NCBI GenBank assembly: GCA_945905925.1
Contig: CAMDQN010000053.1
Coordinates: 1 to 43,203 of the forward strand
Direction of reading: 5' to 3'
DNA from: Singulisphaera sp. GP187
Lineage (GTDB): Bacteria > Planctomycetota > Planctomycetia > Gemmatales > Gemmataceae
DNA: 43,203 nucleotides
Below are positions 1-27,123 of the stretch, one piece after another; position 1 is the stretch's first letter; each line of letters begins with the position of its first letter. The notes beneath the pieces were generated by a model. That model was not told the origin of the DNA. It was given only the letters and a program-made list of their open reading frames with translations, and ran no database searches. A program made the position numbers and the translations under genes.

Positions 1-50
1 CGAAGTTGTTCTTGAAGAGCGCCTGCCGACAAAGTGGGGATGCTGGACAT
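1..50 (-). CDS. Possible 5' end of a minus-strand gene running off the window
   Basis: An ATG at 50-48 on the minus strand opens a frame without stops to the window edge (about 16 codons, beginning MSSIPTLSAG). It is preceded at normal spacing by an AGGAG ribosome-binding site (AGGAGAAGCCA then ATG). The helicase gene upstream on the same strand ends at 225, with a strong hairpin between them. Too little is visible to assign a family. The call rests only on the start context. Confidence 0.35.
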   Translation of the reverse strand, partial: MSSIPTLSAGALQEQL

Positions 51-148
51 TGGCTTCTCCTGTCAACGCACGCGAATTCGCAACTCCTTCAACACGTCAA
101 CGGATAGCACTCTCATATGTAGACGCCCCCGGAAGATTTGCCACACCC

Positions 149-204
149 AAGGCGAGCGCGCCACGTCAGCGCATCAGTTGGCGCTGACGTGGCGCGCTCG
201 CCTT
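149..204. repeat. Perfect 24-bp inverted repeat, 8-nt loop
   Basis: Positions 149-172 are the exact reverse complement of 181-204, with the loop at 173-180. It lies 21 nt downstream of the helicase stop codon, so the transcript would end in a very stable hairpin. There is no T-run on either side, so it is either a Rho-independent-like 3' stabiliser or a member of a dispersed palindrome family. Confidence 0.85.
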
Positions 205-224
205 CGGCTTGCGGCTAAACAAAC

Positions 225-2687
225 TCAGTCAAGAATTCCCTGTGCAAACCCATCGACCTCTTCAACAGGTTTGGGCGCCTCCGGTGTCGTCGCGATGGCG
301 ACCTTCGCGTGTTCCTCGCCTTCGACCACGTCCGCACCGTGAGCGCGCTTGATCGCCTCTTCCGTGCTGGTCGGATCGACGGCACGACAAATGTCCGTGA
401 GCTTGTCGGAAATCTCCGTGAGTTCCTTCTTCCACTCCTCTGGTGTCATGCCCGGCGGCGTGAGTTGCTCGAACTCCTGCGTCAACAGCATCAGCCTCAG
501 CAGATGACGGAAGATCAACCCTTCCTGCTTCGTCAGGTCTTTGGTCGTGACGTAGGTGTTGAAGTTGCCGTAGTTGATCACCTCGGCCGCAGCCCACACG
601 GGCGTTGTGACGAAGTCGCCGACCTCGGGGTACTTCGCGTCGAAGAGAAGGCGCGCCTTGTCCGCGAGTACCGGCGGGCGCTCGTCCCACGGCACCCATT
701 CCTCTTCTTCCTCTTCAGCGCCCTCGACCTTCGGTGTCTTCGCGACGATCAAGCCTTTCGCGATCAACTCCGGGTCGAGTTTCTCTGTTTGCAGCGGTCC
801 CGGCGACAGATCCCACGGCACGCGAACGAACTTGAGCAACGGTCGCGGGAGTTCGAGGACGCTTTCGAGAAGTTGAAGCCGCTCCTCGCGATTCGCGACG
901 CCGAGCAGGTCGATGAGGAACGCCCCGTACAGCGGATGACAGGCGCGGAACACGAGCAACTTGTCGAGTTCGGGCGTCGGTGTCGCAGTGACGGGTGCGT
1001 AGAGAGGCTCCGAAGAACCCCTCCCCCCAACCCCCTCCCCTAAACGGAGAGGGGGAGCCGAGCCAAGTTGCGCCGCGAGCGCTTGTTCGAGGAGCGTCGG
1101 CTTCTTCTCTTTCTCCCCCTCTCCGTTTAGGGGAGGGGGTTGGGGGGAGGGGTTTTCTTCCACAACCGGTGGCGGCGGATCCAGAACCAGAAACCCGTTC
1201 ACGTGGAGTGTGACGAGCATCCGCGTGAGTTGCTTCATCCCGGCTTCGACGCGCGGTTGGTCGAGCAGACGCTTGCGAACCACGCTGCGAATCTTCTCCA
1301 CGTCCGGCGACACCTTCAGCAGGTACGCGAGCAGGCGCCACGGGAGCGGCCCCTTGCTGTACAACCGACCCGCCGGCGCGTTCTTCAGCCGCTCGAAGTC
1401 AGCCTCGGTCCAGTACTTCTTCTGACTGTTGCGCGTCGGCTTCTTCTTGAGCAGCGTCTTCTTCGCCTTCAACAAACCGGGGTCTTTCGTGTTCTCGGGA
1501 ATCTGATCGTACTGCTGCTTCCAGCGCAGTATGCGCACGTCGTCCTCTTCGGGATACGCGAACACGTAGCCCTCGGTGTCGTACTGCGGGCGCCCGGCAC
1601 GGCCGAAGATCTGGTGCGCGGTACTCGCCTCGATCAACTTCTCCTTGCCGAATGGCCCTTTCACGAGCGACGTAAGCACGACCGAGCGAGCCGGGAGGTT
1701 AATGCCCGCCGCGAGCGTTTCCGTACAGAGCGCGACAGACAGCAACTTCTTCTCGAATAGTTCCTCCACAACTCGGCGGTACTTCGGCAGCAACCCCGCG
1801 TGGTGAACCCCGACACCCCGCCTCAGCATCTGCTTGAGCTTCGGTCCGACTCCGTGCGGCCATTCGAGTTTATCGCACTCCTTATTCAGCGCGGTCTTCT
1901 GTGCCGCGTTCATAAGCTCAAGTCCCTTCAGTTGCTCGGCCACATTCCAGCACTCGTCGCGGTTGAACGCGAACACCAGTGCCGGTGTCTTGCGGGTCGC
2001 GTCGTCGCCTTTCGCGATGTCCACGAGCAACTCGTTCAGGAACTGATCAGGCACCCACTTATAGGTAAGGGGAATCTTCCGCTCTTTCCCTTCAACCAAT
2101 TCGATCTGCCGCCCGTGTTGGCGGTCAAGCCAGTTCGTGAACTCCACCGCGTTGCCAACGGTCGCGGAGAGCAGCAGCAACCGGATGTGCTTCGGGAGCA
2201 TGTTGAGCGAGAGTTCCCACACGATGCCGCGTTCCGGGTCCGCGAAACTGTGGAACTCGTCCATCACCACCGCGCTTGTGTGCGTGAAGTCGTAGCCGTC
2301 CGCGTGGAGCAATCGATTCAGCAGAATCTCCGCGACCACGATTAAGACACGCGCGTTCGGGTTCACGCGCCGGTTGCCGGTCACTAATCCCACGTCTTCG
2401 GCTTTGAAGCCCCACCGGACTGCGGCGGCTTGCATCTCGGTGAACTTCTGCTCGGTGAGCGCGATGAGCGGCGTCGTGTAATACGCGACGGTGTTCGTGT
2501 GGAGTGCCTCGAAGAGCGCCGCGTGCGCGATTAGCGTTTTGCCGGTGCCGGTCGGCGCGCAGACCATCACGCCCTGCTCCGCCGTGAACCACGCAAGCAA
2601 CGCCTCTTCCTGCACCGGGTAGGGAGGATAAGGGAGTTGGTCGATGTACTTCGACGCGAGTTCGGACCGACTATCGGATGCGCTCAT
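225..2687 (-). CDS. Ski2-like DExH-box helicase with an in-frame palindromic insert
   Basis: A superfamily 2 RNA/DNA helicase of the Ski2/Mtr4 type (820 aa). Walker A APTGTGKT is at residues 44-51, the DEFH form of the DExH box at 143-146, motif III SAT at 174-176, and the family-typical motif VI GRAGRPQYD at 362-370. The protein would unwind nucleic acid by ATP hydrolysis in the cytoplasm; its substrate cannot be read from the sequence. The C-terminal third (about 400-820) has no motif I recognise and is acidic near 690-710. Residues about 510-558 are low-complexity Pro/Gly sequence encoded by a perfect 42-bp inverted repeat, which looks like an insertion in a linker. Start ATG at 2687-2685. 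No close operon partner on this strand except the possible gene below 50. Confidence 0.88.
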   Translation of the reverse strand: MSASDSRSELASKYIDQLPYPPYPVQEEALLAWFTAEQGVMVCAPTGTGKTLIAHAALFEALHTNTVAYYTTPLIALTEQKFTEMQAAAVRWGFKAEDVGLVTGNRRVNPNARVLIVVAEILLNRLLHADGYDFTHTSAVVMDEFHSFADPERGIVWELSLNMLPKHIRLLLLSATVGNAVEFTNWLDRQHGRQIELVEGKERKIPLTYKWVPDQFLNELLVDIAKGDDATRKTPALVFAFNRDECWNVAEQLKGLELMNAAQKTALNKECDKLEWPHGVGPKLKQMLRRGVGVHHAGLLPKYRRVVEELFEKKLLSVALCTETLAAGINLPARSVVLTSLVKGPFGKEKLIEASTAHQIFGRAGRPQYDTEGYVFAYPEEDDVRILRWKQQYDQIPENTKDPGLLKAKKTLLKKKPTRNSQKKYWTEADFERLKNAPAGRLYSKGPLPWRLLAYLLKVSPDVEKIRSVVRKRLLDQPRVEAGMKQLTRMLVTLHVNGFLVLDPPPPVVEENPSPQPPPLNGEGEKEKKPTLLEQALAAQLGSAPPLRLGEGVGGRGSSEPLYAPVTATPTPELDKLLVFRACHPLYGAFLIDLLGVANREERLQLLESVLELPRPLLKFVRVPWDLSPGPLQTEKLDPELIAKGLIVAKTPKVEGAEEEEEEWVPWDERPPVLADKARLLFDAKYPEVGDFVTTPVWAAAEVINYGNFNTYVTTKDLTKQEGLIFRHLLRLMLLTQEFEQLTPPGMTPEEWKKELTEISDKLTDICRAVDPTSTEEAIKRAHGADVVEGEEHAKVAIATTPEAPKPVEEVDGFAQGILD
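1016..1154. repeat. Coding inverted repeat: two perfect 42-bp arms, 55-nt spacer
   Basis: Arms 1016-1057 and 1113-1154 are exact reverse complements and flank a 55-nt spacer. The repeat lies wholly inside the helicase gene and is translated in frame as Pro/Gly/Glu-rich sequence (NPSPQPPPLNGEGE on one arm, PPLRLGEGVGGRG on the other). The C-tract pattern (CCCCTCCCC, TAA, GGAG) is shared with the palindrome at 14023-14129. Confidence 0.92.
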
Positions 2688-2717
2688 GCGTGCAGTTTAG
2701 CAGAACCGGCGAACCGG

Positions 2718-2796
2718 CGAACCCCAGCCGCAAGGCCGGGGGTGTTCGTCGCGTACCCCGACCGCGCCCCACCCCCGGCCTTGCGGCCGGGGTTCG
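2718..2796. repeat. 26-bp inverted repeat between divergent genes
   Basis: Arms 2718-2743 and 2771-2796 are reverse complements with one mismatch and a 27-nt spacer. Each arm also contains a small palindrome (GGCCTTGCGGCC or its variant). A short direct repeat GAACCGGC occurs twice just before the first arm. It occupies the divergent intergenic region between the helicase (start 2687) and the oxidoreductase (start 2880), so it lies where promoters of both genes are expected. Confidence 0.85.
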
Positions 2797-2879
2797 CCCG
2801 AAACCGGTTGCTCCGCGCTCGCCCGCCGGGTATCGTGCATCGGTCTGTCTCTTCCCTCCTTCGCTGCCGGAGAACTCGC

Positions 2880-4331
2880 ATGAGTCGCGTTTCACGCCGT
2901 CGGTTCCTTCAAACATCGCTCGCCGCTGCCGCGACCGTCACCATCGGCGGCACCAAGTCTTCCGCGCGTGTCATGGGCGCGAACGACCGCATCCGCATCG
3001 CGGTTGCCGGGCTGAACGGTCGCGGAAGCGCACACGTCGGCGCTTACCTCGGCATGAAGAACGTCGAGATCGCGTACCTCGTGGACCCGCACAAGGGAAC
3101 CTACAAGAAGCACCTCGATTCGATCGCCAAGAAGGAACTGCCCGCGGCGGCCACGCTCACCGACATCCGCAAGGCGCTCGAAGACAAGCAACTCAACGCG
3201 GTGTCCATCGCGACCCCGAACCACTGGCACTCGCTCATGACCATCTGGGCGTGTGAAGCCGGCAAGGACGTGTACGTCGAAAAACCGATGTCGCACAACA
3301 TCCACGAAGGCCGGATTGCGGTGCAGATGGCTCACAAGCACAAGCGGGTCGTTCAGCACGGCACACAGAGCCGCAGTTCGCAATCGTGGGAAGATCTCGC
3401 GGCCCTCGTGAAGAGCAAGAAACTCGGCAAGTTGCTCGTGTCGCGCGGCCTGTGCTACAAGGACGGCGGCACCGGCGGTAGCACTCGCGGCGACATCGGA
3501 ACCAAGCCCACGAAGGCTCCACCCGCGGACCTCGACTTCAACATCTGGCTCGGGCCGGCGCAAGAACAACCGTACCACGAGAATCTGGTTCACTACCGCT
3601 GGCACTGGTTCTGGGACTTCGGCAACGGCGACATGGGCAACCAGGGCGTTCACCAGATGGACATTGCGCGCTGGCTGATCCCCGGCGCAACGTGGCCGAA
3701 GTCGGTCATCAGTTTCGGCGGGCGCTACGCGAACGGCGACCAGGCTGAGACACCCAACACGCAGGTCACGGTTATGGACTTCGGCGAAACGCAACTGATT
3801 TTCGAGACCCGCGGGCTGAAGTCGAAGAAGTACCTCAACGCGGACGTCGGGAACATCCTGCACTTCGAGGAAGGCGTGGTCGCGGGCGGCAAGTTCTATC
3901 CAAAGGGTAAGGGCGACGGTGAGGCGGTGCCGAAGGTCGTGGCCGAGAAGAAGATCAGTGGCGACCACTTCGCTAACTTCATCGACTGCGTCCGTAGCCG
4001 CGACACCACGAAGCTCCACGCGGAGATCGAACTCGGGCACGTCTCCAGCGGTCTGTGCCACCTCGGTCACATCAGCCACAAGCTCGGGAAGGACGAAGCC
4101 TACGATCCGAAGCTCGGCAAACTCAGCGGCAACGAGTTCGGCACCGAGGCACTGGAACGAATGGCTGAACACCTCAAGGAAAGCGGCATCAAGTTCGAGG
4201 GCAAGAACCTCCGCGTAGGGAGGAAACTCGACTTCGACGTGAAGACCGAGCGGTTCATCAAGGACGAGCAGGCCAACGCGCTGTTGACTCGCAAGTACCG
4301 CGCCCCGTTCACCGTGCCGGATAAGGTTTGA
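2880..4331 (+). CDS. Tat-exported Gfo/Idh/MocA family oxidoreductase
   Basis: An NAD(P)-dependent sugar or polyol dehydrogenase-like protein (483 aa). The N-terminus carries a twin-arginine signal (SRRRFLQ, residues about 5-11, then an Ala-rich hydrophobic stretch), so it is probably exported folded with its cofactor. The Rossmann loop VAGLNGRG follows near residue 42, and the family EKP motif (VEKPMSHN) lies near residue 134. The region DFGNGDMGNQGVHQMD in the C-terminal domain is typical of the planctomycete members. Start chosen at ATG 2880 because the Tat signal begins there; the open frame extends further upstream through the intergenic repeat. The substrate is not predictable. Such exported paralogues are numerous in planctomycetes (family knowledge). 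Confidence 0.93.
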   Translation: MSRVSRRRFLQTSLAAAATVTIGGTKSSARVMGANDRIRIAVAGLNGRGSAHVGAYLGMKNVEIAYLVDPHKGTYKKHLDSIAKKELPAAATLTDIRKALEDKQLNAVSIATPNHWHSLMTIWACEAGKDVYVEKPMSHNIHEGRIAVQMAHKHKRVVQHGTQSRSSQSWEDLAALVKSKKLGKLLVSRGLCYKDGGTGGSTRGDIGTKPTKAPPADLDFNIWLGPAQEQPYHENLVHYRWHWFWDFGNGDMGNQGVHQMDIARWLIPGATWPKSVISFGGRYANGDQAETPNTQVTVMDFGETQLIFETRGLKSKKYLNADVGNILHFEEGVVAGGKFYPKGKGDGEAVPKVVAEKKISGDHFANFIDCVRSRDTTKLHAEIELGHVSSGLCHLGHISHKLGKDEAYDPKLGKLSGNEFGTEALERMAEHLKESGIKFEGKNLRVGRKLDFDVKTERFIKDEQANALLTRKYRAPFTVPDKV

Positions 4332-4346
4332 GCGGGTGATCAGAAA

Positions 4347-4472
4347 CCTGGGGCTTACGCCCACAGGCTAAGAACAGTCTCCCTTCCTGGGCTGAAAACC
4401 AAGACCGCAATTGTCTTTGTCTTTAGCCCCGGATGGGGCGGCTGTTCGTAGCCTGTGGGCGTAAGCCCCAGG
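4347..4472. repeat. Perfect 24-bp inverted repeat around a 78-nt nested palindrome
   Basis: Arms 4347-4370 and 4449-4472 are exact reverse complements. Between them is a second, imperfect inverted pair (CTGGGCTGAAA near 4387 against TTTAGCCCCGG near 4422). The whole would form a branched cruciform or a long structured RNA. It fills the 187-nt gap between the oxidoreductase and amidohydrolase genes. Confidence 0.88.
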
Positions 4473-4518
4473 CACCATTGGCGCGCTCATATCTCTAAAT
4501 CATTTCTAAAGGCCACCC

Positions 4519-6186
4519 ATGTCTACTCTTCTCCTTCTCTCCCTTCTCACTCCTTGCGCCAAACCCCCGGTCGCGGCGGACCTCATCGTTCACAACGGTA
4601 AGGTCTGGACCGGTGACGCGAAGCACCCCGACGCGCAAGCGGTCGCAGTGTGGCGAGACCGCATCATCAAGGTCGGCACCGACGCCGAAGTGAAACCACT
4701 CGCGGGCGCGAGTACGAAGCTCATCGATCTAAAAGGCGGTCGGCTCGTGCCCGGTTTCTACGACAGTCACTTGCACTTCCTCGGCGGCGGATTGTCACTC
4801 GCGAGGATCGATTTGAAAGACGCGAAGGACGAAGCCGAGTTCGGCAAGCGCCTCGTCATCTTTGACAAGAACACCGCGCGCGAGCGCTGGATCGTGGGCG
4901 GGCTGTGGGACCACGACCACACCTTCAAGGGCGAGTTACCGACGGTCGCGACCATCGACAAGTTTGTCAAGGACCGGCCGGTGTTCATCCGCCGGTACGA
5001 TGGACACATGGGTCTCGCGAACTCCTCGGCGCTGAAGCTCGCGGGCATCACGGCCGACACGAAGGAAGTTCCGGGTGGCGTGATCTACCGGCTCGCGGAC
5101 GGCAAGACGCCTTCGGGCGTCCTCAAAGACAACGCGATGTCACTCATCGAGAAACTCATCCCCGAACCCGGCGACGAGGAGATTCTCGAAGCGGTGCTCG
5201 CAGCACAGAAAGCCGCGGCCGAAGCCGGAATCACTAGCGCACAAGACCTCGACGGCACCGGCTCCGAAACGCGGCGCAAGCTGTTCCGCATCTATCAGCG
5301 GCTCGCGCGCGAAGGAAAGATGACGTGCCGCATCGACCTGCGCTGGCCGATTGCCTTTCACAAAGAGTTGGCGAACGCGGGCTTAACGGCCGACTTCGGC
5401 AACGACTTCATCCGCGGCGGCGGCGTGAAAGGCTTCATGGATGGCTCGCTTGGCAGCAGCACCGCGAAGATGTTCGCCCCCTATGTGAGCGACGCGAAGA
5501 CCACCGGAGTGTACGTCACCGAACCAGACACGATGCGGAGTTACATCAGGAGTGCGGACGCGGCCGGGTTGAACGTGTGCGTTCACGCGATCGGCGATCA
5601 GGCGAACGCGGTGTTGCTCGACCTGTTCGCGGACGTGGCAAAACAGAACGGCGCGAAGGACCGGCGATTTCGGATCGAACACGTTCAGCACCTGCGCCCC
5701 GAAGACTACAAGCGATTTAAGGAGTTGGGTGTGATCGCGTCGATGCAGCCGTACCATGTGATCGACGACGGGCGCTGGGCAGAAAATCGCATCGGGGCGA
5801 AGCGGTGCGCGAGCTCCTACGCGTACCGGTCACTGCTCGACGCGGGGGCGAAGCTCGCGTTCGGCTCCGACTGGCCAGTCGCACCGCTCGACGTACTCGC
5901 GGGCATCGACGCGGCCGTAAACCGCCACACGCTCGACGGCAAGCACCCCAACGGCTGGTTCCCCGAACAGCGCATCACGGTCGCTGAAGCGGTCGAAGCG
6001 TACACGCTAGGAAGCGCGTTCGCGGGCCATCAGGAGAAGGATCGCGGGAGCATCGCGGCCGGCAAACTGGCGGACTTTGTGCTGCTCTCGCGCGACATCT
6101 TCGGCCCCGCGGAGAAGGACAAGATTGCCGACACAAAGGTGCTAATGACAGTGGTGGGTGGGAACGTGATCTTCGAGCGGAGGTGA
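4519..6186 (+). CDS. Secreted YtcJ-type metal-dependent amidohydrolase
   Basis: Amidohydrolase_3/YtcJ family (555 aa), hydrolysing amide or related bonds with a metal-dependent TIM barrel. The metal-binding HxH is seen as YDSHLHF (His84, His86), followed by HAIGDQAN (about 356), the RIEHVQH motif, and FGSDWP with the catalytic Asp near residue 451. The N-terminal composite beta-domain (DLIVHNGKVWTGD) is present. Residues 1-20 are hydrophobic and end in Ala residues, fitting a signal peptide. Start ATG 4519 follows AAAGG at about 5 nt. It is transcribed in the same direction as the oxidoreductase but separated by a large repeat. The substrate is unknown. Confidence 0.9.
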   Translation: MSTLLLLSLLTPCAKPPVAADLIVHNGKVWTGDAKHPDAQAVAVWRDRIIKVGTDAEVKPLAGASTKLIDLKGGRLVPGFYDSHLHFLGGGLSLARIDLKDAKDEAEFGKRLVIFDKNTARERWIVGGLWDHDHTFKGELPTVATIDKFVKDRPVFIRRYDGHMGLANSSALKLAGITADTKEVPGGVIYRLADGKTPSGVLKDNAMSLIEKLIPEPGDEEILEAVLAAQKAAAEAGITSAQDLDGTGSETRRKLFRIYQRLAREGKMTCRIDLRWPIAFHKELANAGLTADFGNDFIRGGGVKGFMDGSLGSSTAKMFAPYVSDAKTTGVYVTEPDTMRSYIRSADAAGLNVCVHAIGDQANAVLLDLFADVAKQNGAKDRRFRIEHVQHLRPEDYKRFKELGVIASMQPYHVIDDGRWAENRIGAKRCASSYAYRSLLDAGAKLAFGSDWPVAPLDVLAGIDAAVNRHTLDGKHPNGWFPEQRITVAEAVEAYTLGSAFAGHQEKDRGSIAAGKLADFVLLSRDIFGPAEKDKIADTKVLMTVVGGNVIFERR

Positions 6187-6200
6187 TGCTTCGTCCCAAG

Positions 6201-6222
6201 CCCAGGGATCGCAGTCCCTGGG
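6201..6222. repeat. Small palindrome between convergent genes
   Basis: CCCAGGGA at 6201-6208 pairs with TCCCTGGG at 6215-6222 across a 6-nt loop. It lies between the ends of the amidohydrolase (6186) and the minus-strand secreted protein (6232), a position fitting a bidirectional transcription end. There is no T-run. Confidence 0.6.
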
Positions 6223-6231
6223 CGCAACAAC

Positions 6232-6726
6232 TCAATCCTTCTTCGGCGCCAAATCAAACTCGAAGGCGCCTTCGATTGTTGTGCCGTCGTCGTTCAGTGG
6301 GTGCTTCCACGTCCCCTTGATCTTCTTGCCCTGGAGCGTCGCGATGTACGGAATCTTGGTAATCGCCTCGGTGTTCTCCACGTCCTTCGAGCCGACCGAT
6401 TCCCACTCGATCTTGTAGCCCTTCTCCGGCTTGTCCTTGTCCACCGGCTTGATCGTCCCGCGAACGAGGTACGTCAGTTTCAATTCATCGGTCTTCTCGA
6501 ACAGATCGGCCTCGAACTTCTCGCCGTCGCGCTTGGTGATGGTGAACTCACAGTGGAACTCCGGCGGGGCACCGCCGGCGCCTTTGTACTCTCCCTTCTG
6601 AGTGAGTTTGCCTTTCCAAACGGTGCCGATCAGAACCGGGTCGCCGTCCTTCGCCGGGGCCGCCCGCACCAACGCGCCGGCGGCCAACACTACGACCACC
6701 ACTACCAGTTTGAACGTGCGTTTCAT
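6232..6726 (-). CDS. Small secreted hypothetical protein
   Basis: A 164-aa protein with a clear signal peptide (MKRTFKLVVVVVVLAAGALVRA, cleavage after ARA-like residues). The mature part is Lys/Glu-rich, predicted all-beta, with no cysteines other than one and no motif I recognise; the repeated pattern of short strands (GTVWKGKLTQKGEY, ITGT-like turns) suggests a lipocalin-like or calycin-like barrel, which is only an inference. Start ATG 6726 is set by an excellent AAGGAGG ribosome-binding site, although the frame stays open upstream to 6885. It is divergent from aspS. Confidence 0.82.
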   Translation of the reverse strand: MKRTFKLVVVVVVLAAGALVRAAPAKDGDPVLIGTVWKGKLTQKGEYKGAGGAPPEFHCEFTITKRDGEKFEADLFEKTDELKLTYLVRGTIKPVDKDKPEKGYKIEWESVGSKDVENTEAITKIPYIATLQGKKIKGTWKHPLNDDGTTIEGAFEFDLAPKKD

Positions 6727-6903
6727 TCGTGTTCCTCCTTCGACGTGTGAAACCATTCTCGCGCCGCGTAACGCACACCGCCAGTGCAATCGCGCCAGCG
6801 TTTCGCGTTCGACCCACACGGGCGTTCGGCGAACCGACCCCTCACAGCCCCTGTCCGTATACTGCCCCTTCAGAGATCGCAACATTCACGCCGGGAGATG
6901 GCA

Positions 6904-8820
6904 ATGGCCGAGTGGCAACGAACGCACACCTGCGAACAACTCCGCGAGGAACACGTCGAGCAAACGGTCACGCTCAACGGCTGGGTACTGAGCGCCCGTG
7001 ACAACGGGCACCAGACCTTCATCGACCTCCGCGACCGCTACGGGCTGACGCAGGTGGTGTTCCACCGGGCCGATAACGCCGATCTGTATGCCCAGGCCAA
7101 AGATCTAAAAAGCGAGTGGGTAATATCCGTGACCGGTCTCGTGCGCAAGCGACTCGAAGGCGCGGAGCGCGCCGACATTTCCACGGGCGCTGTTGAACTC
7201 GAAGCACAGGTGATGCGCGTACTGAACCAATGTCCGCCGCTGCCGTTCGAGGTACACGAGTTCGACAACAAGCTCGCGAACGAAGACTTGCGCCTCCAAT
7301 ACCGCTATCTCGACTTGCGCCGGCGGTCGCTCCAGCGTGTGCTGATTTTGCGCCATCGATTATGCAAAGTGATTCGCGACTACATGGACGCGCACAACTT
7401 CCTAGAAGTCGAAACGCCGCTGCTCGGCAAGAGCACGCCCGAAGGCGCGCGCGACTACCTCGTGCCGAGTCGCGTGTTCAACGGTGAGTTCTTCGCGCTG
7501 CCGCAGTCGCCGCAGTTGTACAAGCAACTGCTGATGATCTCCGGCTACGACCGGTACTTCCAAATCGCGCGATGTCTGCGCGACGAGGACTTGCGAGCCG
7601 ACCGCCAACCGGAGTTTACGCAACTCGACGTGGAGATGTCCTTCGTCGAGCGCGAGGACGTGACCGGCGTCATGGAGAAGCTCGCGGTCGAAGTCTTCGA
7701 CAAGTGCCTCGGCGTGAAACTGAAGACGCCGTTCCCGCGACTCAGCTACGCGGAGGCAATGGCGAAGTACGGCTCCGACAAGCCCGACCTGCGGTTCGGG
7801 CTGGAAATCGTGGACGTGACCGACATCGCGGGGTTGAGCGAGGCGCCCTTATTCAAAGACGCGATCGCGGCCGGCGGCGTGGTTCGCGCAATCAACGCGA
7901 AAGGCGGAGCCGCAGCACAAGACGCGAAGAAGGCACCGCTCTTCAGCAACACCGCGCTGAAAGGAGGTGGCGAACTCGCAAAGGTTACGGAGACATACAA
8001 GGCGAAAGCGCTGGCGTGGCTGAAGGTCGAAGCCGGCAAGTTCACCGGATCTGTCGAGAAATTCCTCTCGGACGAACTGAAGGCGACGCTCGCGGAGCGC
8101 CTCGGCGCCGCCGATGGTGACTTGCTTCTGTTCGTCGCGGACACCGAAGCGGTGGTGTGTGACGCGCTCGGCGCGCTGCGCGTGCATGTCGCGACGCGAT
8201 TGAAGCTCTACCAAAACTGGTGGGAAGAGAAGGCCGAACACGACGCCGCCGAGAAAAAGAAATCGGACACAGCCAAGAAGAAAAAGGAAGCCTACGCGCC
8301 GGTTCCGTTCCAGCCCCGACCGGAACACTTCAACTTCCTCTGGGTGCTCGACTTCCCGATGTTCGGGTGGGACGACGAGGAGAAGAAGTGGGCCGCGATG
8401 CACCACCCGTTCACCGCGCCGATGGACGACGACCTGCCACACTTCTGGCAGAACGAGTCACTCGGCAAGGTGCGAGCGAAGGCTTACGACTTGGTGCTAA
8501 ACGGCTATGAGGTCGGCGGCGGCTCGATCCGTATTCACCGGCAGGACGTGCAAAGTCGCGTGTTCGAGATTCTGGGAATGACCACCGACGAAGCGCAGGC
8601 ACGGTTCGGGTTCTTGCTCGACGCGCTCAAGAGCGGGGCGCCGCCGCACGGCGGGATCGCGCTCGGTCTCGACCGCTGGGCGATGATCATCGCGGGCACG
8701 ACGAACATTCGCGATGTGATCGCGTTCCCGAAGAACCAGCGTGCCCGCGACCTGATGACCGGAGCCCCAGCGTGCGTCGATGAACGGCAGTTGAAAGAAC
8801 TGGGTATCAAGTTGAGCTGA
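6904..8820 (+). CDS. aspS: Aspartyl-tRNA synthetase
   Basis: Class II synthetase charging tRNA-Asp (638 aa). The N-terminal OB fold (NGWVLSARDNG, residues 23-33), motif 1 (LEVETPLL, about 166), motif 2 (RCLRDEDLRADRQPEF, about 222) and motif 3 (GLDRWAMI, about 587) are all clear, with the bacterial GAD insertion between motifs 2 and 3. It is longer than the usual 590 aa, partly because of a Lys/Ala-rich segment near residues 445-465 just before the LDFPMFGW strand. Two ATGs compete, 6898 and 6904; GGGAG sits directly against the first and at normal spacing from the second, so 6904 is preferred. A factor-independent terminator follows the gene. Discriminating versus non-discriminating type cannot be settled here. 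Confidence 0.96.
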   Translation: MAEWQRTHTCEQLREEHVEQTVTLNGWVLSARDNGHQTFIDLRDRYGLTQVVFHRADNADLYAQAKDLKSEWVISVTGLVRKRLEGAERADISTGAVELEAQVMRVLNQCPPLPFEVHEFDNKLANEDLRLQYRYLDLRRRSLQRVLILRHRLCKVIRDYMDAHNFLEVETPLLGKSTPEGARDYLVPSRVFNGEFFALPQSPQLYKQLLMISGYDRYFQIARCLRDEDLRADRQPEFTQLDVEMSFVEREDVTGVMEKLAVEVFDKCLGVKLKTPFPRLSYAEAMAKYGSDKPDLRFGLEIVDVTDIAGLSEAPLFKDAIAAGGVVRAINAKGGAAAQDAKKAPLFSNTALKGGGELAKVTETYKAKALAWLKVEAGKFTGSVEKFLSDELKATLAERLGAADGDLLLFVADTEAVVCDALGALRVHVATRLKLYQNWWEEKAEHDAAEKKKSDTAKKKKEAYAPVPFQPRPEHFNFLWVLDFPMFGWDDEEKKWAAMHHPFTAPMDDDLPHFWQNESLGKVRAKAYDLVLNGYEVGGGSIRIHRQDVQSRVFEILGMTTDEAQARFGFLLDALKSGAPPHGGIALGLDRWAMIIAGTTNIRDVIAFPKNQRARDLMTGAPACVDERQLKELGIKLS

Positions 8821-8842
8821 TGTGGTCCGCCGCGGACCACAT
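8820..8842. repeat. Short palindrome overlapping the aspS stop
   Basis: ATGTGGTCCG at 8820-8829 pairs with CGGACCACAT at 8833-8842. It begins on the last base of the aspS stop codon and precedes the true terminator by about 80 nt. Confidence 0.6.
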
Positions 8843-8920
8843 TGGGCGGATTTCCGCGCAAGTCGCCCGCGGCGTCGCGTTCGCATTCCGCTTGCAGGCA
8901 CCAACTCTTCCCCGAGTTGA

Positions 8921-8954
8921 AGACCCACCGAAACGGTCCCGGTGGGTCTTTTTT
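8921..8954 (+). terminator. Intrinsic terminator of aspS
   Basis: AGACCCACCG at 8921-8930 pairs with CGGTGGGTCT at 8940-8949 around a 9-nt loop and is followed directly by a run of T to 8954. This is a textbook Rho-independent terminator. It ends 20 nt before the stop of the convergent cytochrome gene; read on the minus strand the A-run gives no terminator for that gene. Confidence 0.9.
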
Positions 8955-8974
8955 GCGCGCCGCGCTTCTCGGCT

Positions 8975-10834
8975 TCACTTCTTCGGTGGACCGACGACCG
9001 GCCAACCGCCTTTCGGTGCCAACCCGCTGTGGTTCACCTTCGGCCAGTATTTGTAGATGTCGAAGTGCGGGTCGTTGTCCTGGTCGTGGCACTTCATGCA
9101 CGCTCCGCCGACGCGGTTGAGGGTCACTTGCACCGCAGGCGCAATGGCGACCTTGCCGCGCTCACCCGTCTTCGGGTCGAGCTTCGCCAGCTTCTCCATG
9201 AACGCGTTGTCGGGCATCTTCACGTTACCCTCAATGCCCTGCTTCCAGAGCGAGAGCAGTTTCGTGACGTCCTTGTCGTTCGGGTTCGCTGCGTGCCCGC
9301 TGCCGGGGCCGTGGCAACTCTCGCAGCCGACGTGCTTCAGGTGCGGTGTCGTCTTCTCGTCCTGATACCCGGTCTGGTGCTCGAACCCGACCACGTGGCA
9401 CTTCACGCACTCGCCGTCAAACTGCCGCAGGTTCGGGCGCTTCGCGAGTTTCTCCAGCGCGTCCAGCGCGTGCCCGTGGTTCGTCTTCGCCCACTGTGCG
9501 TGTTCGGCTGCGTGGCATACCTTGCACGCGTCGGAACCCACGTACTTCAGTTCCACTTTCGGCTTCAGTGCCTGCGCGTGAATCTGCGCCGCGTGCGGCG
9601 TCCGCGGGTAGTCTTTCGCCAAGTCGATTTCGGCTTTCACCGACTTCGCGTAGGATTCGAGGATGGGGAGCGTCTTGTTCTTCGCACGCGATTCCGCCTC
9701 GGTGCCGGGCGTGATGAACTCCTCGCCCATCGGCACGAGTTGGTACTTCAAATCGAGTCCGCCGTTCTTGTTCTTGAACGCACCCAACACGCCGACGTGC
9801 TGCCCCTTGTGGCCGACCTGGACGACCAGCGTGTTCGTCCCCGCGACCTGTTGCGGCATCAGCGGCGGCAGCGCGTCGTCGGCCTGACACAGGATCACGT
9901 TGAACTGCGGGAAGTCCTTCGCAACCTTCGCCGCGTCCGCGCTCGTGCCCTGATAAATGAGCACGTTCAGTTGCGGCTTCTTCGCGTGTTTGCCGAGTTC
10001 GGCGGTCGCGGCTTTCAGCGTGGCCCCGACATCGGCGAAGTCGATCGAGGTATCCAACTTATCGGCGCGCGCCGCCAGCGCGAGCGGCGTCCCGACGACG
10101 CCCGCGACGCCGACCGGCACCTTGCCCACGTCCGCGACTTCGGTTAAGCCCACCAGCGGGCGCGTGTCGCCGGGCGTGACCGGGAACCGCTGGAGCCGCG
10201 GCACCACCTTCCCGGCGTTGTCCAGGCCGACCGCGTTACCCGCGAGCGTGAACGGGCGCTGTTCCTTTTGAAGCGCGTACGCGCCGAGCAGCATGTCGAG
10301 TTGCCCGGTGAGGTCCGTCTTGCCAACGCCGACCGCGATGTAGCCCATCTCGCGCAGCGCGTTCATCGTGGCGATGTACTTGAGCCGACCTTGATCACGA
10401 ACCGCGGGCTTCTCGGGGTACAGGTCGCCGAGGTCGATCCCCGCGACCGGCCAACCCTTCGCCTTCAGTGTTTCGATGAAGTACGCACGGCGCTCCAGTC
10501 CGCCGGTCTGCGGGCGACTGCACCCGCACGGTTGGAGCAGCCCGAACGTCTGTCCACTGAAAACAATGACCGCGTCCGGCGTCTGGTTCGCCGGCCACTT
10601 GTCGAACAACGGTGCGCCACCGACGAGCGTTTCCTTGGTTTTGGTGGGATCGGCGGGAACGCGTATATTGGGAACCACAACCGTCGGTTCCGACGGGTTC
10701 TCAACCGCGACTGGCATGAGGTGTGTTTCTGGCGTGCCCGCGACGCACCCAACAGCGATCAGCGCTCCCAAGAGCGCGACAAACGCGAACCGCCATGATG
10801 AGGACATGCGGGCGAGCGGGGTCGGATCGGTCAT
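8975..10834 (-). CDS. Lipoprotein with 5'-nucleotidase-like domain and C-terminal tetrahaem cytochrome c554-like domain
   Basis: A 619-aa exported protein. The N-terminus has a signal with a possible lipobox (LIAVGC). A calcineurin/5'-nucleotidase-like fold follows (about 95-400), ending in the family's typical strand pattern (VVQVGHKGQHVGVLG). The metal-binding DxH is replaced by GQT in FSGQTFG and the GNHE/D position reads GKTD, so phosphatase activity is doubtful; a PCGC motif stands next to the first of these. The C-terminal domain holds four CxxCH haem sites at residues 437-441 (CKVCH), 476-480 (CVKCH), 504-508 (CESCH) and 579-583 (CMKCH), in the arrangement of the cytochrome c554 family. 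Start ATG 10834 follows AGGAGGA; the frame is open further upstream. Electron transfer at the outer side of the membrane is inferred. Confidence 0.88.
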   Translation of the reverse strand: MTDPTPLARMSSSWRFAFVALLGALIAVGCVAGTPETHLMPVAVENPSEPTVVVPNIRVPADPTKTKETLVGGAPLFDKWPANQTPDAVIVFSGQTFGLLQPCGCSRPQTGGLERRAYFIETLKAKGWPVAGIDLGDLYPEKPAVRDQGRLKYIATMNALREMGYIAVGVGKTDLTGQLDMLLGAYALQKEQRPFTLAGNAVGLDNAGKVVPRLQRFPVTPGDTRPLVGLTEVADVGKVPVGVAGVVGTPLALAARADKLDTSIDFADVGATLKAATAELGKHAKKPQLNVLIYQGTSADAAKVAKDFPQFNVILCQADDALPPLMPQQVAGTNTLVVQVGHKGQHVGVLGAFKNKNGGLDLKYQLVPMGEEFITPGTEAESRAKNKTLPILESYAKSVKAEIDLAKDYPRTPHAAQIHAQALKPKVELKYVGSDACKVCHAAEHAQWAKTNHGHALDALEKLAKRPNLRQFDGECVKCHVVGFEHQTGYQDEKTTPHLKHVGCESCHGPGSGHAANPNDKDVTKLLSLWKQGIEGNVKMPDNAFMEKLAKLDPKTGERGKVAIAPAVQVTLNRVGGACMKCHDQDNDPHFDIYKYWPKVNHSGLAPKGGWPVVGPPKK

Positions 10835-11018
10835 CGCGGGTCGTCCTCCTGAACGGCGGGCGGGTTCACTCCCACTACAGATTTCGGCCTGAACCCGGCG
10901 ACGTGTCGAGCGCCGGAACCGGCGACCGGGTGCGGAAGGTCGAGAGCGTGCCCAGTTGCGCGGCTTGGGCAAGTGCGAGCACGCGGCACGCCCGACACTG
11001 CCCGCACAACCGACACAC

Positions 11019-12608
11019 TCAACCCGGGTCGCCAGACCCTTTCACCGGGATGCGGATACGTTGCGGATTCAGTCCCTTCGACTCGATCACAATGATCGGA
11101 TTGTCGAGGATCGCGCCGAACTGGCGACCTGGGGGTACCGTGACTTTCAGATCATACACACCGCGCCCTCCGCGGTCGGCCTTCTTTACGACTTCGTATT
11201 TGATGAACTTCGGGCGGCACTCACCTTCGACCACCGCCAGTTCCATCCCGGGCGCGTCGGTCACGAGTTCACCGATCGAGCGCCCGGCAAACGCCCCATC
11301 CGCGTGCTTCTCCCCGAACCCTTCACGGCCCTTGAACGGCGGGATTTCGATGCTGGTCTTGCCGTTTGCCAGGCCCACCGGCCCTTTCACCATCGCGGTG
11401 ACCAGTACCGCCTGCGGCTTGGCATCTCCGGCCGTAATGTAGATGGTGCGTTCCATCTGCCCGATGTCGAGTTGGGTGTCACCGACCTTGCGGCGCACCG
11501 TGACCGTGACCCGGTACGCGGTCAGCACCTTCGTGAACTTCTTCTGCCGGTCGAGATCACGTTCGACATCCAACAGGGCCGATTCGGGAAGGCGCTCCAC
11601 CTTCTTGGCGACCTCGACGAACTTCCCCACCTCGATGCCGGTCGGAGCCTGAACGACACACGTAGGCTCGGGGAGGTCACCGAACTCCCACTTGGGGTCG
11701 GGCTTGCGGGTGGCGGAGTACACCAGGAACGTGTATTCCGCGTCCTTCGTCAGTTGGTTGATTTCGCCAACGTCGATCGTCGGCGTGGACACCACAAACG
11801 GCTGGGACGGGGCGTAGAAAATCTGAAACGAGTGCTCGCCGCGTTGATCGGGACTGCCATCGACCTCCGTGGCGAAACCGGAGACGAGCGGAACCTTCGG
11901 GTTGTCACTCACGGTGAACGTGAGTTCCAGAATGCCCCACTGCGGCGCCCACTTATCGGGCGGATCGGCGGCCGCGGGCACCTTGTACGTCGCATGCGGG
12001 TTCTCGCTAAATTTGTGTCTTGTCCATTCGAGCCGCTCGAAGTCCGCGGCTGGGTCCGCGAGGCCGACCCCAAACGCGTTGAACGCGCCGATCGGCAGAG
12101 ATGCCAGCGCGGTCCGGTGCATGTACGCCTTCATCACGGCCGGCGGGATCGCGGCCACACGCCCGCCGCTGCAGGCACCGCAGTTGACCCCCTGGAGTTG
12201 GAGAGTCACCGAGCGTGAGTTCCGGTTCTCGAACCAGAATGCGGCGCACCGCACCTGCGGACCGGTTTCGTAGAAGCCCTGGAAAACGCGGTCCTGCACA
12301 CTGAACTGGAACGGGAGTTCCTTAGACGGGTCGCGCGACGGGGCCAGGAGCGGGAAGTGCTGATACTCCGGTGCGAGCGACGGCGGATCCCACGCGCGCG
12401 TGCTGCTGAAGAACCGCAGCGGCGGTTCGTTGTTCGTCACTCCAGACGTGCCGGGCTTCTCCTTACCGACATCGGATGGCTTCGGCGGTGTGTAAACCGA
12501 GAAGAGCGTGATGCCAAAGATGACGGCCATGAGCGCGACGATTGGGACCGCGACTTTCAGCGTGGACTTCAGCCCACCCGCGGGCGTTGCGTTCGCGTCT
12601 TGGCTCAT
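11019..12608 (-). CDS. Membrane-anchored protein with Ig-like/DUF1573-like features
   Basis: A 529-aa protein with one N-terminal membrane segment (about residues 17-38) and a long periplasmic part. Residues about 120-160 resemble the DUF1573 type of Ig-like domain, which usually ends in a CGCT motif; here it reads CGAC (Cys143, Cys146). A second beta-rich unit begins near TPTIDVGEINQL. The family placement is weak and rests on local resemblance only. Start ATG 12608 has GAGGAG at good spacing. The cytochrome gene follows on the same strand after 184 nt, and the M16 peptidase precedes by 108 nt, so a shared transcript is possible. A Cys pair in the same cluster as an exported haem protein could mean a metal or haem partner, but that is a guess. 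Confidence 0.7.
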   Translation of the reverse strand: MSQDANATPAGGLKSTLKVAVPIVALMAVIFGITLFSVYTPPKPSDVGKEKPGTSGVTNNEPPLRFFSSTRAWDPPSLAPEYQHFPLLAPSRDPSKELPFQFSVQDRVFQGFYETGPQVRCAAFWFENRNSRSVTLQLQGVNCGACSGGRVAAIPPAVMKAYMHRTALASLPIGAFNAFGVGLADPAADFERLEWTRHKFSENPHATYKVPAAADPPDKWAPQWGILELTFTVSDNPKVPLVSGFATEVDGSPDQRGEHSFQIFYAPSQPFVVSTPTIDVGEINQLTKDAEYTFLVYSATRKPDPKWEFGDLPEPTCVVQAPTGIEVGKFVEVAKKVERLPESALLDVERDLDRQKKFTKVLTAYRVTVTVRRKVGDTQLDIGQMERTIYITAGDAKPQAVLVTAMVKGPVGLANGKTSIEIPPFKGREGFGEKHADGAFAGRSIGELVTDAPGMELAVVEGECRPKFIKYEVVKKADRGGRGVYDLKVTVPPGRQFGAILDNPIIVIESKGLNPQRIRIPVKGSGDPG

Positions 12609-12716
12609 ACTTGTGGCTCCTCAGGCAAAGGGCGTCGCTAGATTCTACGTTGAAAGACGGTGTGGTGTTCGCATCTTGGTTGCGCGTGATTTCGGCACTG
12701 CCACCCCTGACTCCCG

Positions 12717-15575
12717 TCACTTCTTCTTCGCGAGCGGTTTGCCGTCCTTGTCGATCGGGCCGACCGCGACGAGCAGAAACGCCTTCGGGTCGAGGTGCTT
12801 CTTCGCCATCTCCTGCACGACCGCGGGCGTCACCGCGTCCACCTCCTTGCGATACTTCTCCAGGAAGTCGAACCCGACCCCGTAGCGCTCGGCCGCGAGC
12901 AACTCACTCGCCACGCCGGACATCGTCGTGAACTTGAACGGCAGACTGCCCAGGAGGTACTTCTTCGCGTCGTCCACTTCCTGCTTGGTCGGTTCCTCGT
13001 CGCGGAGCTTGTTCACCTCCTTGAAGAACCCGTGCTTCACGTCGAGGAACTTGTCCGGGAACGTGCCCACGAACCCGGTGAACGTGCCGGGTTGCTTCCC
13101 CGCGCTCGACGCGATAGTTGCGTTCACGGTGTACGCTAACCCGAGCCGGTCACGGAGATTGGCCGACAATCGGTCCGTGAACCCCGGGCCGGTGCCGAGC
13201 ACGTTGTCCATCACCAGCAACTTGTAGTAGTCCGGGTGGTCGCGCGTGATGCCGAGTTGCCCGATGTAGACGTGAACCTGCGCCGCGTTCGCGTCGGAGA
13301 CGATCTTCTCGCCGCCGATCGGCTTCGGCGGGGCCGCGACTTCGGGCTTGCCCAGATCGGACTTCTTCCAGCCCTTCGTGAGCGACTCGATCTTCTTCGT
13401 CATCTCCTCAATCTTGAAGTCGCCGACGAGCGCGATCGTGGTGAAGTTCGGCGCGAACGTGAGTGCATGGAACTTTTTCACATCCGCCGCGGTCAATTTC
13501 TCGACGATCTCCTTCTTGCCGAGCGACGGCCGGCCACTTGGGTGCGTACCGTACACCGTGGAGTAGAACAGCCGGCTCGCCTTGGTCCGCGGTTGTGTCT
13601 CCGCGTCCGCGATGGCCGAAAGCTGTTGCTCGCGCATCCGTTCGAGCGCGTCCTGCGGGAAACTCGGCGTCTGGATGCACTCAAACAGCAGCCCCAATCC
13701 CAGATCGGTGTCGGGCGTCAACACGCGGAACGAGCCGCCGCTGGACGCGAGCGTGAGGCTCCCGCCGGTGTCCTCGATGAGCGCCGAAATCTCTTTCCCC
13801 GTATGCTTCGCGCTGCCTTCTTCAAGTAGATTGCCCGTGAGCGTGGCGACGCCGAGTTGGTCGAGCGGTTCTCGCAGGCGCACGTCGGCCACTTCGAGCG
13901 ACCCGACCACGACCGGTAACCGGTGGTCTTCGAGGAGGATTACTGTGAGACCATTCGGCAACACGACCCGCTTCGCTGCGGTGAGGGTGAATCCGCCGGC
14001 ACCGGGAGCGTCGGCGCGCGAAGAAGACCTCTCCCCCCAACCCCCTCCCCTAAGAAGGGAGGGGGAGTCAGACTGCCGGTTGTATTTAGCCCCTCCCTTC
14101 TTAGGGGAGGGGTTGGGGAGGGGTTCTTCGCCCCCGCCCTTCTTCTCCTCCTTCGGCACGCTCCACACGATTGCGGACTGTTTGCGCACGAGGTACTGCT
14201 TCGCGACGCGCTGAATGTCCGCCTTCGACACCTTCCCCACGGCTTCGAGATAGTTCTCGAAGAACTTCGCCACGTCCTCGCCACCGGGGTAGGTGCTGGT
14301 GCGCGAGACCGCGTCGGCCAGGCTGTGAACGCTCTCCCGCGAGAAGATGAACGACGCCAGAATCTTCCGCCGGGCGCGGGCGAGTTCGGCGTCCGTGACC
14401 AGTTCGGCCGCGAGCTTCTCAATCTCCGCGAACACGAGGCCTTCCGCTTTCTTGCGGTCCTTCCCCTGAAGCAATTCGACGTTCACCCCGAACCAGCCGG
14501 GGTAGCGGCCAGCGTAATTGCCGGCGCTCACCTCCGACGCGATTCGCTCGTCTTCCACTACCTTGCGGTAAAGACGAGAGGTCTTGCCGCTCGCGAGGAT
14601 GTCCGAGATCACGTCGAGAATCGGATCTTGCGGCGCGCCGACCGTGACCGTGTTGAACCCTACCATCAGGCGCGGCACGTCGAACTTCGACTCGAATTCC
14701 TTCCGCGCCGGCTCCTTGCGCTCGGGTAAGAACGTGGCTTTCTTGCGCGGCGGCAACTCTCCTTTCTTGATCGGCCCGAACAGCGTGGTGATCTTCTTCA
14801 GCGCCGCGTCCGCGTCGAACCCACCCGCGACGACGAGCGCCGCGTTGTTCGGGTGATACCACTTGTCGTAATATCGCTTGATGATCTCTGCGGTCGCGCC
14901 GCGAACGTGTTCGCGCTGCCCGATGACCGGATGCGAGTACGGTGATTCCTTCGGCCACAGCAGCGGCAGCATCGCCTTGTATTCCAGATCCCACGGGTTG
15001 TCCTCGCCGCCCTCTAGTTCCGCGACGACCGCGCCCTTCTCCTGCTCGAACTCGTGCTTCGCGTCGATCAGAACGTTCCGCATCCGGTCGGCTTCGATCT
15101 CCAGCGCCTGTTCCCACCGGTCGGCGGCGAAATCGAAGTGATAGACAGTCATGTCCTCGGAGGTATACGCATTGTTGCGCCCGCCGTTGCGCTGCGTGGC
15201 GCGGTCGATGTCGCCGGGCATGAGCTTCGCGGTGCCCTTGAACAGCAGGTGTTCGAGGTAGTGCGAGAGACCCGTTTGGTCCTTCTCTTCATCGCACGAG
15301 CCGACGCGATACGCGACCATCGTGGTAACGACCGGCGAACCCTTCACCGGGAGCAAATAGACACGAAGCCCGTTTTCGAGTGTGACGAGTTTCAGGTCTT
15401 TGAACATCCCCTGTGCGGTCTTCACCAACTCCGCGTCGGTCTTGGGGTCCGGCGCACATTCGGCCGACTCTGTGAGCGTGACGGGCGCGATGGGTGGCGT
15501 GGCGCGCGTCGGAGTGAGATGAATGGGTATCGCAAGCGTGACGAGGGAGAACAAACCGAGCGCGAACCGCGACAT
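12717..15575 (-). CDS. Exported M16 family zinc peptidase, two-lobed single chain
   Basis: Insulinase/pitrilysin-family metallopeptidase (952 aa) with a signal peptide (residues about 1-26). The active lobe has the inverted zinc motif HYLEH (105-109) with the downstream Glu region AVVAELEGGEDN. The second lobe (about 530-952) keeps the fold but lacks HxxEH (TLTGNLLEEGS in its place) and would complete the clam-shell, as in single-chain M16 enzymes. The two lobes are joined by a linker (about 483-517) encoded by a GC-rich palindrome, giving low-complexity Pro/Gly/Arg/Ser sequence. Expected role: degradation of peptides in the periplasm. Start ATG 15575. The DUF1573-like gene lies 108 nt downstream. 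Confidence 0.93.
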   Translation of the reverse strand: MSRFALGLFSLVTLAIPIHLTPTRATPPIAPVTLTESAECAPDPKTDAELVKTAQGMFKDLKLVTLENGLRVYLLPVKGSPVVTTMVAYRVGSCDEEKDQTGLSHYLEHLLFKGTAKLMPGDIDRATQRNGGRNNAYTSEDMTVYHFDFAADRWEQALEIEADRMRNVLIDAKHEFEQEKGAVVAELEGGEDNPWDLEYKAMLPLLWPKESPYSHPVIGQREHVRGATAEIIKRYYDKWYHPNNAALVVAGGFDADAALKKITTLFGPIKKGELPPRKKATFLPERKEPARKEFESKFDVPRLMVGFNTVTVGAPQDPILDVISDILASGKTSRLYRKVVEDERIASEVSAGNYAGRYPGWFGVNVELLQGKDRKKAEGLVFAEIEKLAAELVTDAELARARRKILASFIFSRESVHSLADAVSRTSTYPGGEDVAKFFENYLEAVGKVSKADIQRVAKQYLVRKQSAIVWSVPKEEKKGGGEEPLPNPSPKKGGAKYNRQSDSPSLLRGGGWGERSSSRADAPGAGGFTLTAAKRVVLPNGLTVILLEDHRLPVVVGSLEVADVRLREPLDQLGVATLTGNLLEEGSAKHTGKEISALIEDTGGSLTLASSGGSFRVLTPDTDLGLGLLFECIQTPSFPQDALERMREQQLSAIADAETQPRTKASRLFYSTVYGTHPSGRPSLGKKEIVEKLTAADVKKFHALTFAPNFTTIALVGDFKIEEMTKKIESLTKGWKKSDLGKPEVAAPPKPIGGEKIVSDANAAQVHVYIGQLGITRDHPDYYKLLVMDNVLGTGPGFTDRLSANLRDRLGLAYTVNATIASSAGKQPGTFTGFVGTFPDKFLDVKHGFFKEVNKLRDEEPTKQEVDDAKKYLLGSLPFKFTTMSGVASELLAAERYGVGFDFLEKYRKEVDAVTPAVVQEMAKKHLDPKAFLLVAVGPIDKDGKPLAKKK
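14023..14129. repeat. Coding inverted repeat in the M16 peptidase linker
   Basis: Arms 14023-14066 and 14090-14129 are imperfect reverse complements (a few length differences in the C-tracts), separated by about 23 nt. The core CCCCTCCCCTAAGAAGGGAGGGG is palindromic in itself. The C-tract arrangement closely matches the element in the helicase at 1016-1154, but it is read in different frames, giving PLPNPSPKKGG and SPSLLRGGGWGE on the protein. Confidence 0.88.
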
Positions 15576-15877
15576 GACTAGTCCTTCCTGACCGGGGAAC
15601 GGGTTCTTCGCCAGTGTAGCGGTTCCTGTTGGTGGCAGCGAGTGCGTCGGTGCAACGCGTCGCGACTCCTGGTTCGTAGTCGCAGCAGAAACACGCGCCC
15701 AAATATTTGCTTCCGACGAAATCTCCCCTAAATTCCATCAACTCACTGTTACCGGCTTAATCGCTCTTTTCTACGCTGCTTGCCCCGGAAACGGGCCTGA
15801 TCCACCGACTCATGGCACATTGATTGCGGAGAACTGATGCGAGCCGGTGAGGTGTCGTCCCGCAGGACTGATTCCCC
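15576..15877. other. Divergent intergenic region
   Basis: 302 nt between the starts of the M16 peptidase (minus) and the DUF5658-like gene (plus). It holds a relatively A/T-rich patch near 15700-15735 (AAATATTTG, AAATCTCCCCTAAATT) that could contain promoters. No convincing -35/-10 pair, hairpin or small gene was found. Confidence 0.5.
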
Positions 15878-22456: not shown

Positions 22457-22499
22457 TTTCAAAGTAGTAGGCACACGGAGTGTGCCTACTACTTTGAAA
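22457..22499. repeat. Perfect 20-bp palindrome with 3-nt loop
   Basis: Positions 22457-22476 and 22480-22499 are exact reverse complements around GGA. The sequence (GTAGTAGGCACAC core) is less GC-rich than its surroundings. It sits 5 nt beyond the stop of the phosphatase gene and would form a very tight hairpin at the end of that transcript. Confidence 0.9.
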
Positions 22500-27032: not shown

Positions 27033-27049
27033 GGGAAGCTCGCCTTGGC

Positions 27050-27117
27050 GAACCCCGCCCTCAAGGGCGGGGGTGCTCTGCCCGGCTGAAACACCCCGCC
27101 CTTGTGGGCGGGGTGCG
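27050..27117. repeat. Paired GC-rich palindromes between rne and selD
   Basis: Two palindromes, GAACCCCGCCCTCAAGGGCGGGGGTG (27050-27075, read here in two parts) and one near 27091-27115 (CACCCCGCCC, TTGT, GGGCGGGGTG), are each self-complementary and also reverse-complementary to each other. Design is similar to the repeat at 2718-2796 with a different core. Confidence 0.8.
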
Positions 27118-27123
27118 CCCGCA

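Follow-up and report, generated by a model that had tools for sequence, protein, structure and literature searches.

The perfect 42-bp palindrome translated within a helicase gene of Singulisphaera sp. GP187 was, judging from its sequence and those of its relatives, almost certainly one copy of a dispersed element that resides within genes. Comparison of orthologous sites further suggested that the sites very probably persist while the elements that occupy them turn over in place. The stretch of DNA analyzed, hereafter the window, comprised 43,203 nucleotides of one contig, and the palindrome was arranged in it as follows.

225..2687, minus strand: DEAD/Ski2-like helicase open reading frame of 820 aa, carrying the palindrome in frame
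1016..1057, no strand: arm 1, 42 nt, of type A, with five departures from the family consensus, each also present in arm 2
1058..1112, no strand: loop, 55 nt, about 36 nt of which share homology with the linker native to orthologues that lack arms
1113..1154, no strand: arm 2, exact reverse complement of arm 1

The two arms were 100% complementary over 42 nt each, with 55 nt between them, and the reading frame ran uninterrupted across the palindrome in a protein with Pfam matches to DEAD and Helicase_C, confirming the perfect inverted repeat in an intact helicase frame that the sequence-only reading had described. The 25-mer core of the arm had two matches in the window, the two arms themselves, and was found in 0 of 100 dinucleotide shuffles. 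RNA folding of the region gave -121.3 kcal/mol (z -11.3 against 200 dinucleotide shuffles), and no Rfam family was matched at its gathering score in positions 1-16000 of the window.

A search of the genome with the 151-bp element, which the sequence-only reading had named as the place where its idea of a dispersed element could fail if the repeat occurred nowhere else, yielded 88 matches, or 40 distinct places after strand merging; this count is a lower bound, as 40 of 211 candidates were scored. The copies shared one build, (GAAG)AACCTCTCCCCCCAACCCCCTCCCCTAAGAAGGGAGGGGGAG, then a loop, then the reverse complement of the arm. A degenerate pattern of the arm matched 167 times in the same genome (87 and 80 matches), and the reversed-pattern control matched 0 times. 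The pattern was present in 19 of 59 genomes, this one included, among which the reversed control matched equally often in G030 and G035. The stretches from the genome of the window, parsed by script, comprised 41 doublets (39 once two duplicates were removed) and 12 unpaired arms; 26 of the 39 doublets were symmetric with no indel in either arm, 18 of them being perfect. A non-consensus position was shared by the two arms in 14 cases and confined to one arm in 23, and arm-to-arm mismatches within copies totaled 23, compared with a mean of 47.6 after shuffling (0 of 5000 shuffles were as low). With its C-rich inverted arms of about 42 bp around a variable loop, the palindrome has roughly an even chance of being a non-autonomous mobile element.

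Inverted repeats of any kind with arms of at least 18 numbered 86 in 426 kb of G000, 65 in 399 kb of G003, 22 in 400 kb of G007, and 0 in 400 kb of G017, with mirror-repeat controls of 1, 0, 1, and 0, respectively. Among the 59 genomes searched, G011 and G017, two members of the genus, yielded no arm matches, no Y1_Tnp, and no DUF559 match; of these two, the palindrome survey covered G017 (loci L385-L404). A scan of named genomes found at least 64 stretches, and those listed were all from Planctomycetia or Gemmataceae except one from Sphingomonas. A type A-like arm was seen in an alphaproteobacterium, Sphingomonas gilva (L340, 7560-7760), and the frame directly after it is presumably rimM. Some draft assemblies ended or held runs of N inside palindromes (contigs C427 and C431 of G015, at L044 and L217; QueG of G009, at L254), and copies may therefore be undercounted in draft genomes.

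Copies in conserved genes were found mostly between Pfam domains, in linkers or loops. Twenty-two copies were picked by similarity only, with their flanks sought in G003, G015, and G018, and 19 of these (L009, L015, and L030 lay outside the test) were examined for an in-gene position. Fourteen of the 19 were in genes, as mismatches in both flanks were concentrated at a shared codon position and a single open frame ran through the element; the other five were intergenic or unclear. These numbers were taken from the comparison of orthologues because a simple gene caller labeled some in-gene copies intergenic, such as that in a type III polyketide synthase (L010), and so undercounts them. Pfam matches flanked or surrounded many copies, and two of 20 scanned frames had no match. 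The copy in RecO was located between its two domains, that in QueG within the N-terminal domain, that in an acyltransferase/AMP-binding fusion between domains, that in MgsA inside a split Pfam match, and that in a glycosyltransferase inside the domain. Further hosts by Pfam were RecD2, the type III polyketide synthase, a methyltransferase, an SF1 helicase, and an NADH dehydrogenase-like antiporter, while a CobW host (L015) was recognized from Pfam evidence only. The usual translated insert read EPLPPTPSPKKGGG...PPPFLGEGVGGRGS.

In RecO, QueG, MobA, and the helicase, the element was in frame in a conserved gene and absent from other orthologues, as is typical of Rickettsia palindromic elements (RPEs). 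With at least 40 places in the genome and 14 of 19 tested copies in genes, the earlier proposal of a dispersed palindromic element tolerated within coding regions, with an RPE-like habit, was upheld. In-frame palindromes as such are already known: the available part of one report (PMC3733652) describes RPEs and intragenic REPs that are translated in frame, with RNA helicases among their hosts, as in the C-rich family, and notes that two Xanthomonas species carry REPs in recB at nearly the same position. The likeness to what that part of the report describes is one of habit; here, family turnover was counted site by site, and a nuclease partner is proposed. REPINs, in the part of Bertels and Rainey (2011, PMC3116915) available to us, are inverted repeat doublets with a spacer and a predicted hairpin, present in many dispersed copies. 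The C-rich family, itself an inverted doublet around a spacer in many dispersed copies, resembles them in doublet, spacer, dispersal, and hairpin build. REPINs are described in the same part as extragenic and near RAYTs, whereas 14 of 19 tested C-rich copies were in genes and 0 of 30 Y1 loci had their arms. Genes with long, perfect inverted repeats that are translated were also reported in Nematomorpha mitochondria; according to the available part of that study (PMC6649704), both arms there encode conserved protein regions, whereas the C-rich arms encode an inserted Pro/Gly-rich peptide.

The helicase linker differed in its occupant among species when read by eye. Type A was found in G000 and G015, type B in G003 and G005, other palindromes in G004, G010, G013, G014, G016, and G018, and degenerate or multiple arms in G001, G007, G009, and G012, while G008, G011, and G017 had no palindrome. 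The arms in the close relative G015 showed 2 mismatches in 25 nt where readable (by eye). The recent insertion suggested by the sequence-only reading was therefore unsupported, as the element is also present in G015, where its arms have already diverged, and G003 and G005 carry type B at the same linker. Concerted evolution of the helicase arms, considered from G015, was dropped, as the arms of G015 differ where readable. About 36 nt of the loop were homologous to the arm-free orthologues of G011 and G017 (0 of 500 shuffles each), and the arm 2 end of the loop was similar to loops in other copies. The addition of about 48 residues that had been read from the frame thus did not hold for all of them, part of the loop being native. 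At the helicase site, the loop is native and the arms vary among species, the opposite of the loop change seen at other sites.

A second copy was present in the window, in a peptidase gene.

12717..15575, minus strand: M16 peptidase open reading frame of 952 aa, with the second copy between its two halves
14026..14125, no strand: asymmetric family copy in the M16 frame, with one type A arm, one shorter arm, and a 16-nt centre

The C-tract arrangement that had been noticed in this peptidase was indeed a palindrome, although its two arms differ, and the occupant of this site also varied among species. Reused linkers in relatives were those of the helicase, M16, RecO, QueG, and MobA. Across 35 orthologous pairs of site and genome, in which one-sided flank matches were left unscored and "none" means no inverted repeat of at least 14, nine pairs had an A/B type element, 16 another palindrome, one a remnant, and nine none; a palindrome was thus again present at 25 of 35 pairs, 16 times from another family. 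The "other" class included L021 in G018, which is a weak palindrome of 16 bp, and the "none" class included L005 in G003, where short inverted parts are visible. In all seven same-type pairs compared (of nine), arms were 90-100% and flanks 76-97% identical, while loops were no closer than shuffles. That 25 of 35 pairs were again palindromic, with unrelated loops in seven of seven same-type pairs, pointed to sites that persist as their elements are exchanged. In G003, a palindrome was present at 12 of 16 sites, compared with 449 of 10000 random 100-bp intervals of that genome (4.5%); because the intervals were drawn without regard to how permissive a linker is, tolerance by itself may explain some of the shared occupancy.

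Beyond the 35 pairs, the L023 and L015 sites in G003 held C-rich palindromic inserts by eye, and L023 in G018 was a near-empty site without a palindrome, too diverged for a target duplication to be read. No transposition event was observed. The RecO linker, compared at 30 loci, had inserts of more than 70 nt, differing in type, at nine and only 8-36 nt at 21. Inserts in the QueG linker likewise varied within the genus, and the linker measured 21-72 nt in 13 loci from other genera. In the recO linker of G006 (L230), an 8-nt stretch like an element end was accompanied by an in-frame stop, which could be a scar or an assembly collapse. Insertion into the loops of other palindromes was rejected as a general rule, as loop stems were not enriched relative to shuffles (5 of 26 at p <=0.05). 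Nested cases, with a palindrome within the loop or arm of another, were seen by eye at L082 (G001), L068 (G006), and L218 (G003), the G003 cases being at the L021 and L023 sites.

The DUF559 domain was first seen in a MobA-like frame adjoining one copy (L008). In G000 and G003, a single open frame was composed of MobA, an arm, DUF559, an arm doublet, and MobA again, an arm-DUF559-arm cassette in which DUF559 lies between the same arms. By eye, the mobA linker held a DUF559-less element of the family in G012, another C-rich palindrome in G015, and a different one in G016, and it was empty between conserved flanks in G004, G008, G011, and G036. Of 30 mobA loci, 26 were readable, and 22 of these had a linker of 0-72 nt.

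DUF559 (PF04480) was found in 35 of the 59 genomes, in 43 of 294 of the phylum at E 1e-15, and in 38 of 95 of the taxonomic family, a set that overlaps the first. About one locus per genome was examined, and six weak or fused matches were kept apart. Neighborhoods were scored for a C- or G-rich pyrimidine/purine tract of at least 20 nt within 350 bp on either side, a measure fixed after the first 24 DUF559 loci had been seen, with the other two sets serving as a fixed test. Such tracts were present at 39 of 68 loci (16 of 24 in the first set, then 11 of 29 and 12 of 15; no locus was counted twice) and absent at this threshold from the other 29, as well as from all six weak or fused matches. 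Single 350-bp windows further out at the same loci had tracts in 4 of 315 cases (0/110, 2/135, and 2/70), and random pseudo-genes in 83 of 1800. Random places gave 179/4259 in G000, 87/3990 in G003, 31/4000 in G007, and 5/4000 in G017, and short predicted genes gave 6/55, 0/55, 1/69, and 0/44, respectively. The A/B arm pattern itself was found no more than 400 bp from DUF559 in 8 of 24 loci. Across the 59 genomes, a strong DUF559 match was associated with at least five arm matches (13/11/4/31, Fisher p 0.0009, phylogeny ignored). Arms were also numerous in G029 (175 matches), and present in G033 (14 matches), with no DUF559 at E 1e-3 in either, and G010 had 84 arm matches and DUF559 only as a weak match in a longer frame.

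In 22 DUF559 sequences, E16, D44, E55, and H61 were invariant and D57 near-invariant, and these residues would be the catalytic ones. The DUF559 profile matched PDB entries 3hrl (E 1.1e-35) and 3r3p, "Mobile intron protein" (E 0.0025), the chain of which we take to be I-Bth0305I. EDxHD enzymes are a described family of homing endonucleases, I-Bth0305I among them (PMC3943268, available in part), and their likeness to DUF559 lies in this match to 3r3p; no intron or intein was seen at the DUF559 loci here, where C/G-rich palindromic DNA adjoins instead. A Caulobacter DUF559 protein was called Vsr-like in the available part of another report (PMC12907096). No link between DUF559 and palindromes was found by title among the literature matches listed from a single library.

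These observations suggested the DUF559 endonuclease as a candidate mover of the C-rich palindromes, a reading to which we give slightly less than an even chance. DUF559 is related to Vsr and to mobile-intron endonucleases; in this model, it would introduce a nick or a break at a palindrome, and the repair, templated by a copy elsewhere, would leave a new element at that site, much as in homing. Existing copies would thus be the source of the elements that displace others at the same places, with frame and position subsequently filtered by selection acting on the host protein. Cutting and repair of this kind would account for the co-location of DUF559 with the palindromes, for loops that differ where the arms are retained, and for the turnover of hairpin for hairpin, of which IS1272 offers a precedent involving a different enzyme (PMC5678879), but leaves unexplained the native part of the helicase loop and the arm-rich genomes without DUF559 (G029 and G033). 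More broadly, we tentatively propose that DUF559 proteins move a class of mobile elements that is widespread but undescribed, C/G-rich palindromes that spread in the manner of homing by replacing hairpins with hairpins in genes and between them; host proteins would contain fixed "sockets" where palindromes of any family come and go, and the arm-DUF559-arm cassette in mobA would be the autonomous form. Bacterial genomes contain palindromic repeats for which no mover is known, a long-standing puzzle. If DUF559 were the mover, a domain of unknown function would gain a role, and orphan palindromes would gain a testable partner. An in-frame repeat that turns over at fixed sites in RecO, QueG, and MobA also indicates that parasitic DNA can act as a renewable source of protein linkers.

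DUF559 genes may instead be passengers inserted into palindromes. Replication template switching and gene conversion would then spread and rewrite the palindromes, which gather in permissive linkers, and no dedicated mover would be needed. The concordance of the arms within a copy (23 mismatches against a shuffled mean of 47.6), unrelated loops within the same arms, the sharing of sites by several palindrome families, and genomes with arms but without DUF559 are all consistent with this explanation. We nevertheless consider it unlikely, as 167 arm matches in one genome and none in G011 and G017 suggest an efficient spreader, and the presence of DUF559 tracks that of the arms.

Movement of a REPIN by a REP-associated tyrosine transposase (Y1, RAYT), the arrangement known from Pseudomonas, was an expected explanation, given the same build of an inverted doublet with a spacer, the presence of Y1_Tnp in 48 of 59 genomes, with three matches in the genome of the window, and a GTAG near the end of type B (by eye). 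However, among 30 Y1 loci, one of them from that genome, none had A/B arms in the flanking DNA, read to about 1.5 kb either way, and none had C/G tracts within 350 bp, so the RAYT was demoted as partner of the C-rich arms; several of these loci carried other palindromes. G007 had 33 arm matches and no Y1 match, and Y1 presence was not clearly associated with at least five arm matches across the 59 genomes (16/32/1/10, Fisher p 0.15, phylogeny ignored), making this origin improbable. A different palindrome in the window (CCTGGGGCTTACGCCCACAGGCTA..., 4347-4472) looked, on inspection by eye, like repeats that adjoin Y1_Tnp genes in relatives (L116, for example), and a classical REP/RAYT system therefore seems to coexist with the C-rich one.

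The palindrome could also be a miniature of an ordinary insertion sequence that targets or replaces hairpins, as IS1272 does. According to the available part of one study (PMC5678879), IS1272 replaces inverted repeats without target duplications, which is comparable to the exchange of palindrome for palindrome seen here; it is described there as a full insertion sequence with a transposase, whereas both old and new occupants here are small palindromes. No longer element with A/B ends and a transposase was met in the loci read, and this explanation seems quite improbable. That the hairpin is kept by selection at domain boundaries, for example by slowing ribosomes, is very improbable: the RNA hairpin is very stable (z -11.3) and differing palindromes occur at the same linkers, but many relatives' genes have short linkers there (RecO, 21 of 30; MobA, 22 of 26), and the selection on DNA or RNA structure offered by the sequence-only reading likewise found no support, as relatives have other palindromes, or none, at the same sites.

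More palindromes, of several families, were seen in the window at 149-204, 2716-2798, 22457-22499, 27047-27119, 30392-30447, and 37066-37114, of which that at 30392-30447 is a compact type B hairpin.
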